DNA of 36,423 nucleotides from Gammaproteobacteria bacterium. Its GTDB lineage: Bacteria > Pseudomonadota > Gammaproteobacteria > Steroidobacterales > Woeseiaceae. Below the pieces are notes generated by a model, which saw only the letters and a list, made by a program, of their open reading frames with translations, had not been told where the DNA came from and made no database searches. The DNA lies in assembly GCA_009937445.1 (NCBI GenBank), contig JAACFM010000015.1, positions 1-36,423 on the forward strand, given 5' to 3'. Positions 29,418 to 35,543 of this stretch are shown here, one piece after another. Each line of letters starts with the position of its first letter. The stretch's first letter is position 1. Position numbers and translations under genes: made by a program.

Positions 29418-32020
<2,603 letters not shown>

Positions 32021-32027
32021 CCTCTGG

Positions 32028-34790
32028 CTATCCGCCCAACACGCTCGACTTGAGTTCAGCCAGTCCGACTGCCCAGCGATCGACGGACAGTCGATAGTAT
32101 TCTTCCCAATCCTCGCTACCGGGTATGCCGGTCACGGTCACAAGCAGGCGTGACCCCTTGTCCGTTTCTCTGATTACGATCTCGATCGTGATCGGCCCGG
32201 TTGGCAGCGGTCCTTCCTGTATGTCGGGCATTATGACGATGCGCATTCGGCGCGGCGGCATGAAGATATCGATGCGCCCTGTGACAGAATATCCGTCGCG
32301 AAACTTCAGCTCACATTTTCCGCCGATTTGCGGGTTGAATTCCCCCTCTACGGCCAGCCATCGCTTGATTTGATTGATGTCAGTCAAAGCTGCCCAGATT
32401 TCGTTTCTGTCGCGAGACGATTCGAGTTCAGCCGTGTGGTTTCGTGTCACATCATCAACATGTACAGCCGGGTCTGCCACCACTTTCTTCGCCTTCGGGT
32501 CAGGCGCTGACTGTTCGGGGTAGGAGACAATGTGCAGGTCGCGTTGTGGAAACGGAATCGTGACGCCCGCTTCACGGAAGGCCGCGTCGAGTGAGAAATT
32601 GATGTCGCTCATGACCGAGAACCGGCGCTCAATGCGCTGGACGCGGACACGCAATTCGAAATCCAGTGAGCTGTCACCGAATCCCATGAACAACGCCCGG
32701 GGAGCAGGTGCTCGACCGTCAGTGATGACCTCTGGATGTTCTCGTCCGATGGTTTCCAGAATGTCGCGGACTTTCGCTACGTCTGAACCGTAAGCGACAC
32801 CAACTTTAACCAGGAGACGACCATGGGTATCCCTGAGTACCCAGTTGGTCACGCGGCCTGAAACCAGTTCGGAATTGGGAACAAGAACGTTCTGATTGTT
32901 CAGCGTTTCTATTTCAGTTGCACGGATACGGATGCTGCGAACATAGCCTTCAACATCGCCGACCGAAACGAAGTCTCCCGCACGAATAGGTCGTTCGAAC
33001 AAGAGAATCAATCCAGAGACGAAGTTGTTCGCAATAGCCTGAAGCCCGAAGCCCAGCCCCAGTGCGAGTGCGCCACTGATAATCGCAATTCCTGTCAGAT
33101 CTACACTTGCCGCTTTGAGCGAAACAATGATGGCCACGATAAAGGCGATATAGCCAAATAATGTGAGAATCGCATCGCGGGCGCCACGTTCTATGACAAT
33201 GCGTTGTAACCAACGTCGGTCCACCCAGCGTTTGATCCAACCGATAAGGACGACGAGCGCAGCAAACAGGAGGATACCGCCCACAACGTTTTTCGGAACG
33301 AGGGATACTCCGCCGAGATCCCATCCTTCGACGACGGATAATTGCAGCTTGCCGAGCGTTGATCCCGTGTTATCCCAAACGTAAATCAGGTAAACGATGG
33401 CGGCGATCCAGAGAACCAGATCCGCAACCAGTTGCATGAAGCCAATTCCGGTGCCGGTTCCTTTGTCCGAAATGCCCAGCGAGCTTCTCACTTGGGTTGC
33501 CGTTTCTGAATTCTGTTCGAGGAGGTAATTGAATCCGGCGTAAATCGACCAAAGCGCAACCCAGAGGAAAAACAGTACCAGTCCCGTGCGGGTTACGCCT
33601 TGAACAAGATAGCCTGAGAAATTCTGGTAACCCATCAGTACGGCGATGACGGCAACGCCACTGGTTGTTATGGCGGCAACTCGCAGCGCCCTGTACCGAC
33701 CCTGAAGTCCCGGTATGCGACCGAGATAGGTGAGCAGGTAGAGCAACCCGGATGCCAGGAGAAATAACGACGTCGCGCGGCCGTTGACGTAAGGCTGAGA
33801 TATTCTGGTCGCAAGCCAGTGGTCGCCGAGAACAATATAGCTCAGGCAAATAATGAGCGTGATCAGACGCAATCGAAAACGCAGCGGGGCCACGTGATCA
33901 GGAATGAGCCCGCGTACTTCAGCAGACGGCGAGAGTCGCCCGGTTGCCCAGTTGATCACAACGAAGCTCATTCCGAATGCGAAGATTGCTATCGCAGCGC
34001 GTATGACGGTTAAGTCATTTGAGGCGTCAACGATCACAAGGCTTAAGACTGCGTAAAGTGCCACACCCTCCAGCCATAATGGGGCGAACTCGGCCAGCGG
34101 TTTGGGAAACAGGTATTTCATTTGTGCCGGAGCTTTGTCACCGCCGGCGGCTGCATACCATTTCGCAAATCGTTGGCGAATAAGCAATCCCGCGAATGCT
34201 GCGGCGAGACCTGCGATGATCAAATACCATAGAAGATGTGTCGTCGAAACGCCGTCCGCCAATTGCAGATCAAATTGCGCTCGAAACTGCTCGGGCCATT
34301 CTGCTATGCGCTCGGGAAGATCACTGAGCAGATTGACGACATTGCCCGATTGTGCTGACAGAAATTGCTGAGACAGTTGGTTCTGCCGGGCGGAAATTCG
34401 GGAGATTATGCTCTGCCCTTCATCAACCAGGCCCCCACAGCGGGCTTGTCGCGCAATTGCTTCATCGAGCGAGGTACTGATGGATTGCAGCTGAATGAGC
34501 GACTCTGCACTGGCTTCGCCGGCGGGAATCATTCGCAAGGGCTCGAGTCTCTCTTCCAGGCGCGCGCGCGTCACGCCGTTTTGCTGAGCGCAGGCAGACG
34601 CTGCGTTCACGATCAGACTGGTCCTTGAGCGAGCCGCATTCAGCGCTGCGGCGTCAATCGCAGCGTTGGAGAGCAGTGAAGATATTACCTGCAGCTCGTC
34701 GGCGGCCTCAATGTCATTGAATAACGGCTGGTCCTGTCCAAGGGCGGGCAGGGCGATCAGCAGCAAGCAGAGGACAACGGCTTTTTTCAT
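32028..34790 (-). CDS. MscS-type mechanosensitive channel fused to an SRPBCC (AHSA1/START-like) domain
   Basis: A 920-residue membrane protein. Signal peptide 1-18; periplasmic, coiled-coil-prone domain to about 180; around ten membrane segments between 185 and 600. The MscS pore helix region is IAIISGALALGLGFGLQAIA (568-587), followed by NNFVSGLILLFERPIRAGD and the beta-domain GDVEGYVRSIRIRATEIETL and VLVPNSELVSGRVTNW. The cytoplasmic cage ends near 755. A linker then leads to a C-terminal SRPBCC domain at about 784-917 (EIWAALTDINQIKRWL, GGKCELKFRDGYSVTGRI, GIPGSEDWEEYYRLSVDRWAVGLAELK). Such domains bind hydrophobic ligands or chaperones. Start ATG 34790 has only a weak Shine-Dalgarno; an intrinsic terminator lies 13 bases upstream. 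Confidence 0.88.
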   Translation of the reverse strand: MKKAVVLCLLLIALPALGQDQPLFNDIEAADELQVISSLLSNAAIDAAALNAARSRTSLIVNAASACAQQNGVTRARLEERLEPLRMIPAGEASAESLIQLQSISTSLDEAIARQARCGGLVDEGQSIISRISARQNQLSQQFLSAQSGNVVNLLSDLPERIAEWPEQFRAQFDLQLADGVSTTHLLWYLIIAGLAAAFAGLLIRQRFAKWYAAAGGDKAPAQMKYLFPKPLAEFAPLWLEGVALYAVLSLVIVDASNDLTVIRAAIAIFAFGMSFVVINWATGRLSPSAEVRGLIPDHVAPLRFRLRLITLIICLSYIVLGDHWLATRISQPYVNGRATSLFLLASGLLYLLTYLGRIPGLQGRYRALRVAAITTSGVAVIAVLMGYQNFSGYLVQGVTRTGLVLFFLWVALWSIYAGFNYLLEQNSETATQVRSSLGISDKGTGTGIGFMQLVADLVLWIAAIVYLIYVWDNTGSTLGKLQLSVVEGWDLGGVSLVPKNVVGGILLFAALVVLIGWIKRWVDRRWLQRIVIERGARDAILTLFGYIAFIVAIIVSLKAASVDLTGIAIISGALALGLGFGLQAIANNFVSGLILLFERPIRAGDFVSVGDVEGYVRSIRIRATEIETLNNQNVLVPNSELVSGRVTNWVLRDTHGRLLVKVGVAYGSDVAKVRDILETIGREHPEVITDGRAPAPRALFMGFGDSSLDFELRVRVQRIERRFSVMSDINFSLDAAFREAGVTIPFPQRDLHIVSYPEQSAPDPKAKKVVADPAVHVDDVTRNHTAELESSRDRNEIWAALTDINQIKRWLAVEGEFNPQIGGKCELKFRDGYSVTGRIDIFMPPRRMRIVIMPDIQEGPLPTGPITIEIVIRETDKGSRLLVTVTGIPGSEDWEEYYRLSVDRWAVGLAELKSSVLGG

Positions 34791-34799
34791 GGTCTCTAA

Positions 34800-34830
34800 A
34801 ACAAGAAAGGGCCCTCACGGGCCCTTTCTT
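34800..34830 (-). terminator. Intrinsic terminator between the BI-1 gene and the channel gene
   Basis: A perfect 12-bp stem (34803-34814 / 34819-34830, AAGAAAGGGCCC with its complement) and 4-base loop TCAC. On the minus strand TGTTTTAG follows. It lies right after the Bax-inhibitor gene and directly before the channel's ribosome-binding region. Confidence 0.85.
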
Positions 34831-34841
34831 CTGTATGGCGT

Positions 34842-35543
34842 TTAGTCACGATTCATGAATAAGCGCAAGATATAGAAGAACATCATTGCGATCGAGGCAA
34901 ACAATGCCATCGACGCCGCGACATACTTGTCCTGCGGATAGTGGTGCATGATATTTGAGGTGTCATACAAAACCGCAACACCGGCGAAAGCGATCATACC
35001 AACCGAGAACCAGGTTCCCAGGTCAAAGCCGAAAGCCCACGAAGCGACTATTAGCCCTATCGCAACAAAGAAGCCCCAGACCATCACGCCGCGCAAGAAT
35101 GAAAAGTCTTTGCGGGTAATCATTACGGTAGCGATCAATGCGGCGCAGCCAAAGACGGTTACAACGGCGGCGTCTTCAATGATATTCACGCCACGCTGCT
35201 GGCCGTAAACCATGGCCATGCCTAATATTGGCACGAACATCACGGCCCAGAGCACGACAAACGCGGCAAACGCGGCGTACTGGGCAGCCGTTGATTCGAG
35301 CCGATGAGCCACATGGCCGGCACCCCAACTCAAAGCGACAAAGCCAATCATCACCAGCATAGGGCTTTGCATCATCGTTCCGGCAATCGCCCCGGCCACA
35401 CCAGAACTAAACAGGTAATACTCAACTGCGATCAGGGCAAAGATCGCACCTACGACATGCGCGTAGCATTTCCAGATAAATTCAGAACGGTCCTCGACCG
35501 CAAGGCTTGATACAGGTGCCATCGAATTCAGGTTGTCTTGCAT
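34842..35543 (-). CDS. Bax inhibitor-1 family membrane protein (YccA/YbhL-like)
   Basis: A 233-residue protein with seven predicted membrane segments from about residue 28 to the end, and a short cytoplasmic N-terminus (SSLAVEDRSEFIWKCY). The C-terminal segment GVAVLYDTSNIMHHYPQDKYVAASMALFASIAMMFF contains the BI-1 pattern YDT.n with later Asp residues, associated in this family with pH-dependent calcium leak (split here into recognised parts). In E. coli the relative YccA inhibits FtsH; which subgroup this is cannot be fixed. GGAG lies 7-10 bases before the ATG. A TAAAAT about 35-40 bases upstream is a possible -10. The gene ends in a strong terminator. Confidence 0.88.
   Translation of the reverse strand: MQDNLNSMAPVSSLAVEDRSEFIWKCYAHVVGAIFALIAVEYYLFSSGVAGAIAGTMMQSPMLVMIGFVALSWGAGHVAHRLESTAAQYAAFAAFVVLWAVMFVPILGMAMVYGQQRGVNIIEDAAVVTVFGCAALIATVMITRKDFSFLRGVMVWGFFVAIGLIVASWAFGFDLGTWFSVGMIAFAGVAVLYDTSNIMHHYPQDKYVAASMALFASIAMMFFYILRLFMNRD

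Follow-up and report, generated by a model that had tools for sequence, protein, structure and literature searches.

An MscK-like mechanosensitive channel with a C-terminal AHSA1-type SRPBCC domain, a putative sensor, in the Woeseiaceae

The usual view of MscS-family channels is that they act as valves for membrane tension; known examples of direct control by chemicals are few. In bCNG channels, an MscS-superfamily pore carries an added cyclic-nucleotide domain. The MscS cage itself ends in a barrel of seven strands, one per subunit, that opens to the cytoplasm. Titles in the reference list of PMC4560390 describe the bCNG channels as cyclic-nucleotide-gated. For MscK (KefA), PMC9653487 states that activation requires external K+ and that the cytoplasmic domain has essentially the same shape in the closed and open channel.

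The gene described here lies in a 36,423-nucleotide stretch of a Woeseiaceae genome (contig JAACFM010000015.1; hereafter the window), where it forms a single 920-residue frame on the complement strand, with its ATG at 34790 and its stop ending at 32028 (32028..34790, -), exactly as the initial annotation had it. Frame and Pfam matches together delineate an MscK-like mechanosensitive channel followed by a C-terminal AHSA1/SRPBCC domain. Seven genes with MscS domains were found in the genome, this one included. The MscS beta domain PF00924 (MS_channel_2nd) occupies residues 586-651 (32838..33035, -; E 2e-22, 79.5 bits against a cut-off of 20.2), and the C-terminal domain of the cytoplasmic cage, PF21082 (MS_channel_3rd), residues 661-744 (32559..32810, -; E 7e-16, 58.9 bits against 21). 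An MscS pore and cage are therefore present as proposed, but the label "standard MscS" is inexact, because the nearest named relatives are MscK proteins. The best named NCBIfam match is MscK (NF008438; residues 457-759), at 228.1 bits against an equivalog cut-off of 991 that is not reached, and the closest PDB chain by sequence is E. coli MscK 7uw5 (E 1.6e-52, residues 483-756), followed by MscM, MscS and YnaI. Judged by its sequence, the channel is of the long MscK-like type and not a plain MscS.

The likeness to MscK appears to extend to the overall plan, with a signal-like N-terminal stretch, a helical region, about 11 membrane helices (in a low-confidence model) and an MscS cage. Residues 1-18 (34737..34790, -) resemble a signal peptide by eye, with no predictor behind the assignment. 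Residues 20-180 (34251..34733, -) are predicted to form a helical domain, from the low-confidence model and identity comparison, and by analogy with MscK we infer that this domain is periplasmic; it spans about 160 residues, compared with about 500 for the periplasmic part of MscK as given in PMC9653487. The membrane part (residues 183-596; 33003..34244, -) rests on the same model and on MscK homology over residues 483-756. The full-length model is poor (mean pLDDT 60.3), so its roughly 11 long helices at 183-596, with further helices within 26-172, give an approximate count, and the model was excluded from claims on domain packing. The last membrane helix is predicted to line the pore. Alignment with MscK stops at residue 1097 of the 1120 in chain 7uw5, whereas the protein described here continues into the AHSA1 tail. 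E. coli MscS aligns from query residue 501 to 760 with residues 30-283 of the 294-residue chain 7onj, and the tail begins about 20 residues past the end of this match. Since the match stops near the end of the MscS chain, the tail is probably attached where the strands of the cage barrel exit into the cytoplasm.

Between cage and tail lies a variable, probably disordered linker (residues 756-780; 32451..32525, -), with pLDDT below 50 at residues 5-29 of the tail model, equivalent to protein residues 755-779. Its earlier description as Lys/Asp-rich is not reliable: in this protein 31 residues hold three Lys/Arg and six Asp/Glu, and mean pairwise identity across 22 relatives is 21%. The tail (residues 781-918; 32037..32450, -) is assigned to AHSA1/SRPBCC from Pfam, an AlphaFold2 model and PDB matches. 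When the whole protein is scanned, PF08327 is found at residues 795-911 (E 6e-9; 36.6 bits, where the curated cut-off is 22.1), and the score rises to 40.9 bits when the last 170 residues are scanned alone. In all five further fused relatives scanned PF08327 scores 36.2-50.1 bits, with the channel domains likewise above cut-off. Structure prediction of the tail, set beforehand as a test of the AHSA1/START-type assignment, yields a strand, two short helices, six strands and a long helix, with block pLDDT of 85-96 across the domain and one block at 72. The model thus predicts a helix-grip fold, in agreement with the initial annotation.

Comparison with solved structures points the same way. The best PDB sequence match of the tail is the AHSA1-like protein 2lak (E 5.3e-5 for the tail alone), and the top structural matches of the model are 3q63 (MLL2253), 1z94 (CV1439), 2m89 (Colwellia Aha1) and 8es5 (the P. 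aeruginosa Aha1 domain). These four share 15-20% identity with the tail, and are chains of 134-146 residues in entries that contain no channel. After the AHSA1-like proteins come other cup-forming proteins, among them 5zcg, 2qim and 4a84, whose entry titles name abscisic acid, cytokinin or deoxycholate.

A search with the tail in 73 genomes of the window's genus recovered the fused tail in five, the window's genome included; a sixth match (E 4.5e-6, 28% identity) lies within a 302-residue frame. Among 396 genomes of the order there were 20 further strong matches, all from Woeseiaceae. The fused channel is visible in 24 of 107 Woeseiaceae genomes, representing 11 of 12 genera; in addition, one contig (in G315) ends within the tail and leaves a tail fragment beside serS. 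A whole-protein search of the same 107 genomes returned 26 orthologues above 260 bits, and the tail is present in every one of the 24 whose C-terminus is visible. The other two, from different species of the window's genus, are cut by contigs that break at the same codon (G032, at the start of L038, and G073, at the end of L156; residue 681 in the numbering of the window's protein). Because the same fused frame recurs in separate assemblies across these genera, with the AHSA1 domain in frame and not as a neighbouring gene, a fusion created by assembly error or frame-shift, already considered improbable from the window, is rejected.

Beyond the family, searches with a profile of the tail (A2) found no further fusion in samples of 369 genomes from the class and 398 from the phylum. 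Apart from the window, the profile matched one genome in the class sample and 18 in the phylum sample, in frames of at most 342 residues with one exception of 749 residues. This longer frame was considered as a second fusion and rejected, as by eye it combines an AHSA1 gene of normal size with an accidental open frame upstream. The sensitivity of the profile is limited: the window was its sole positive control in the class sample, it passed over a stand-alone relative (in G045) that a single-sequence search had found, and it would miss an independent fusion involving a distant or unrelated SRPBCC domain.

The closest relatives found for the tail come from another family of the same order (f10), where 110 genomes encode AHSA1 proteins that stand alone. 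They are separate small genes in open frames of at most 387 residues, and their best matches to the tail are 21-34% identical. At 12 of these 110 loci, each viewed over 6-13 kb, no MscK gene was found beside the AHSA1 gene. Two of the stand-alone genes of this family (L099 5033-5419 and L098 4502-4897) adjoin a MAPEG-family gene, Pfam-confirmed at L099 and assigned by resemblance at L098. The fused tails have 26 conserved positions, of which 11 (R783, W811, G823, G824, D841, R850, G888, P890, W895, W906 and L913) recur in no fewer than 11 of the 12 stand-alone proteins examined. Conservation at these positions consequently offers no argument specific to a pocket in the fused tails. When 22 fused domains and 12 stand-alone ones are placed in one tree, they form two groups whose separation is fully supported (100/100); a single origin of the fusion would fit this, though the tree does not prove it.

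The polarity of the change is suggested by more distant channels. Of 23 genomes from other families, nine (spread over seven families) encode long orthologues that score 418-591 bits. Their similarity reaches residue 755-774, where the proteins stop with no AHSA1 domain, an absence read from the sequences, with Pfam run on two. In four of these nine loci (L011, L012, L016 and L019) serS is recognisable by eye as a neighbour. A tail-less channel beside serS thus looks ancestral, and the tail was probably a single gain that dates to the common ancestor of the Woeseiaceae or earlier.

Within the window's genus the gene itself is patchily distributed. The site between serS and the Bax1-I family gene (window 32020-34842, and loci L159-L187) either carries the channel gene or lacks it cleanly. 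Among the 30 best serS loci of the genus, three have the gene and 27 do not, and in 23 of the latter serS and the Bax1-I gene are adjacent (with a gap of less than 130 bases in 22, and of about 600 in one). Because outgroups have the channel, its absence here is most simply explained as loss. The function of the channel appears dispensable, as 66 of the 73 genomes of the genus contain no orthologue above 260 bits and the inspected sites are mostly closed up.

At the C-terminal side of the channel lies the convergent serS (30740..32020, +; Pfam Seryl_tRNA_N and tRNA-synt_2b, with synteny), and upstream of it a Bax1-I family membrane protein gene (34842..35543, -; PF01027, with synteny); this gene order is that of the relatives' loci. 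The window apart, serS occupies its convergent position in 23 of 24 tail-bearing loci; at L074 about 2.2 kb separate the two genes, and at L082 a contig end falls where serS would be. A match to the Bax1-I gene is found upstream in 15 of the 24 and is lacking upstream at L085, L086, L088, L089, L090 and L091, while L039, L092 and L093 are too short upstream to show it. Of the neighbours checked (serS, Bax1-I and SDR), serS alone is near-constant, and its role is a housekeeping one. A consensus scan of the gene region found no promoter-like site, and five terminator-like sites where 4.2 would be expected. Between the Bax1-I stop and the channel ATG there is a GC-rich inverted repeat with a T-rich tract after it (34798-34827, -), ending 7 bases ahead of that ATG; absent from the scan's list, it looks like a terminator or leader hairpin. 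In one relative (G072; L106 2653-2690) no ATG precedes the stretch that resembles a signal peptide, and the open frame continues into Bax1-I, so translation there may be coupled to Bax1-I.

To compare constraint across the protein, dN/dS was estimated for six genome pairs, of which three were computable in all regions, one of them with dS above 1; the rest were saturated. In these three pairs, taken in the same order, the tail has dN/dS values of 0.09, 0.23 and 0.04; the linker gives 0.53, 0.23 and 0.17, and the pore and cage give 0.10, 0.01 and 0.02. Tail and linker are equal in one pair. Mean pairwise identity across 22 proteins is 80% for the pore and cage, 55% for the membrane part, 50% for the tail, 40% for the periplasmic part (the most variable folded region) and 21% for the linker. 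Together these values indicate that the tail is a constrained domain on a fast-changing tether. Distances among tails also correlate with those of the pore (Mantel r 0.76) and the membrane part (r 0.90), with none of 2000 permutations as high, and the tracking of the membrane part is the pattern expected of a single inherited unit. On this comparative evidence from sequence, the fusion is maintained by natural selection in the Woeseiaceae.

We propose that the tail is a putative sensor whose occupancy shifts channel behaviour, and regard this as the likeliest role, with a probability of roughly 45%. A presumably heptameric MscK-type channel of the Woeseiaceae would have acquired a C-terminal SRPBCC domain of the AHSA1 type. 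The cage of each subunit would end in one strand of the seven-stranded barrel, leading to that subunit's tail, such that seven SRPBCC domains would hang in the cytoplasm on flexible linkers just below the cage exit. Each helix-grip cup may bind a small, probably partly hydrophobic cytoplasmic molecule or a lipid, and its occupancy could alter how the domains pack against the cage. The changed packing would in turn shift the tension needed for opening or inactivation, or the passage of solutes. This role is favoured because helix-grip domains often hold small or lipid-like molecules, and it is made plausible by the precedents for chemical control in the MscS family, MscK with K+ and bCNG with cyclic nucleotides. 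The small change reported for the MscK cytoplasmic domain on opening (PMC9653487) makes allostery from cage to gate less easy to envisage, and occupancy might instead affect inactivation, or how solutes pass through the cage. Also weighing against a sensor are the absence of the gene from most genomes of the window's genus, the pair in which tail and linker have equal dN/dS, and the conserved positions shared with stand-alone proteins. A more specific version, in which tension and a metabolite or lipid held in seven START/Bet v 1-type cups jointly gate the channel, an arrangement fixed by one domain gain in the Woeseiaceae, is put forward tentatively, with about one chance in three.

The strongest competitor to a sensor role is that the tail docks rather than senses, binding a partner protein, its sister tails or the cage, and thereby placing or stabilising the channel or sensing crowding without a small ligand. 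We consider this somewhat unlikely, yet several features suit it. The linker that carries the tail is variable and probably flexible, and six residues (H785, G816, I822, T868, V886 and E896) that are kept in fused tails and absent from all 12 stand-alone relatives could form an interface. A dimer is named in the entry title of the Colwellia Aha1 structure (2m89), and FtsZ is reported to partner the cage of E. coli MscS (title of PMC4440785). However, no partner gene appears among the neighbours checked, and this is a fold that often carries a ligand.

Recruitment of the chaperone HtpG (bacterial Hsp90), in the manner of Aha1 and eukaryotic Hsp90, would tie the channel to protein-folding stress. 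The Pfam family name and structural matches of the tail to human and Plasmodium Aha1 (7dme, 8z3h and 3ni8) recall such a role, and of 27 genomes that contain all or part of the channel gene, 26 have HtpG; the one without it is 65% complete. HtpG is nonetheless common in bacteria, being present in five of 14 control genomes, so co-occurrence discriminates little, and PF08327 names a fold family, not a function. Bacterial AHSA1-like proteins are a broad group that is not generally known to act on HtpG, and we consider recruitment improbable. A similarly small probability attaches to an enzyme or lipid-handling domain that the channel merely tethers to the membrane. Cyclases and lipid-transfer proteins share the helix-grip fold, the tail model matches polyketide aromatases and thebaine synthase among others, and Polyketide_cyc2 is matched weakly, under its cut-off, in one relative, but no catalytic motif stood out in the analysis and no pathway is evident in the locus. 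That the tail is a hitch-hiker with nothing particular to do, or a product of faulty assembly or gene calling, is very improbable: most genomes of the window's genus do lack the gene, and the tail has changed more quickly than the pore, but recurrence across separate assemblies of 11 genera and tail dN/dS well below 1 in the computable pairs largely contradict such a reading.

If the sensor reading with joint gating is correct, the channel would use a class of ligand receptor that we found described for no MscS channel. A channel bearing a ligand cup and kept in 11 genera of one marine family would offer a natural system for studying how a sensor at the cage tunes a pore, with ready-made controls in the tail-less orthologues from other families and in the AHSA1 proteins that stand alone. 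Among the open-licence PMC papers listed by literature searches, judged by titles and the starts of abstracts, no description of an MscS-SRPBCC fusion was found; the suggestion that the architecture is undescribed is consistent with this survey and bounded by it. There is a parallel with the bCNG channels, which likewise join an MscS-superfamily channel to an added domain of a ligand-binding kind. The added domain differs, being SRPBCC here instead of a cyclic-nucleotide domain, for which the 920-residue protein gave no Pfam match up to E 1. Chemical control within the MscS superfamily is already known from MscK and bCNG, and the SRPBCC version is a new variation on it.
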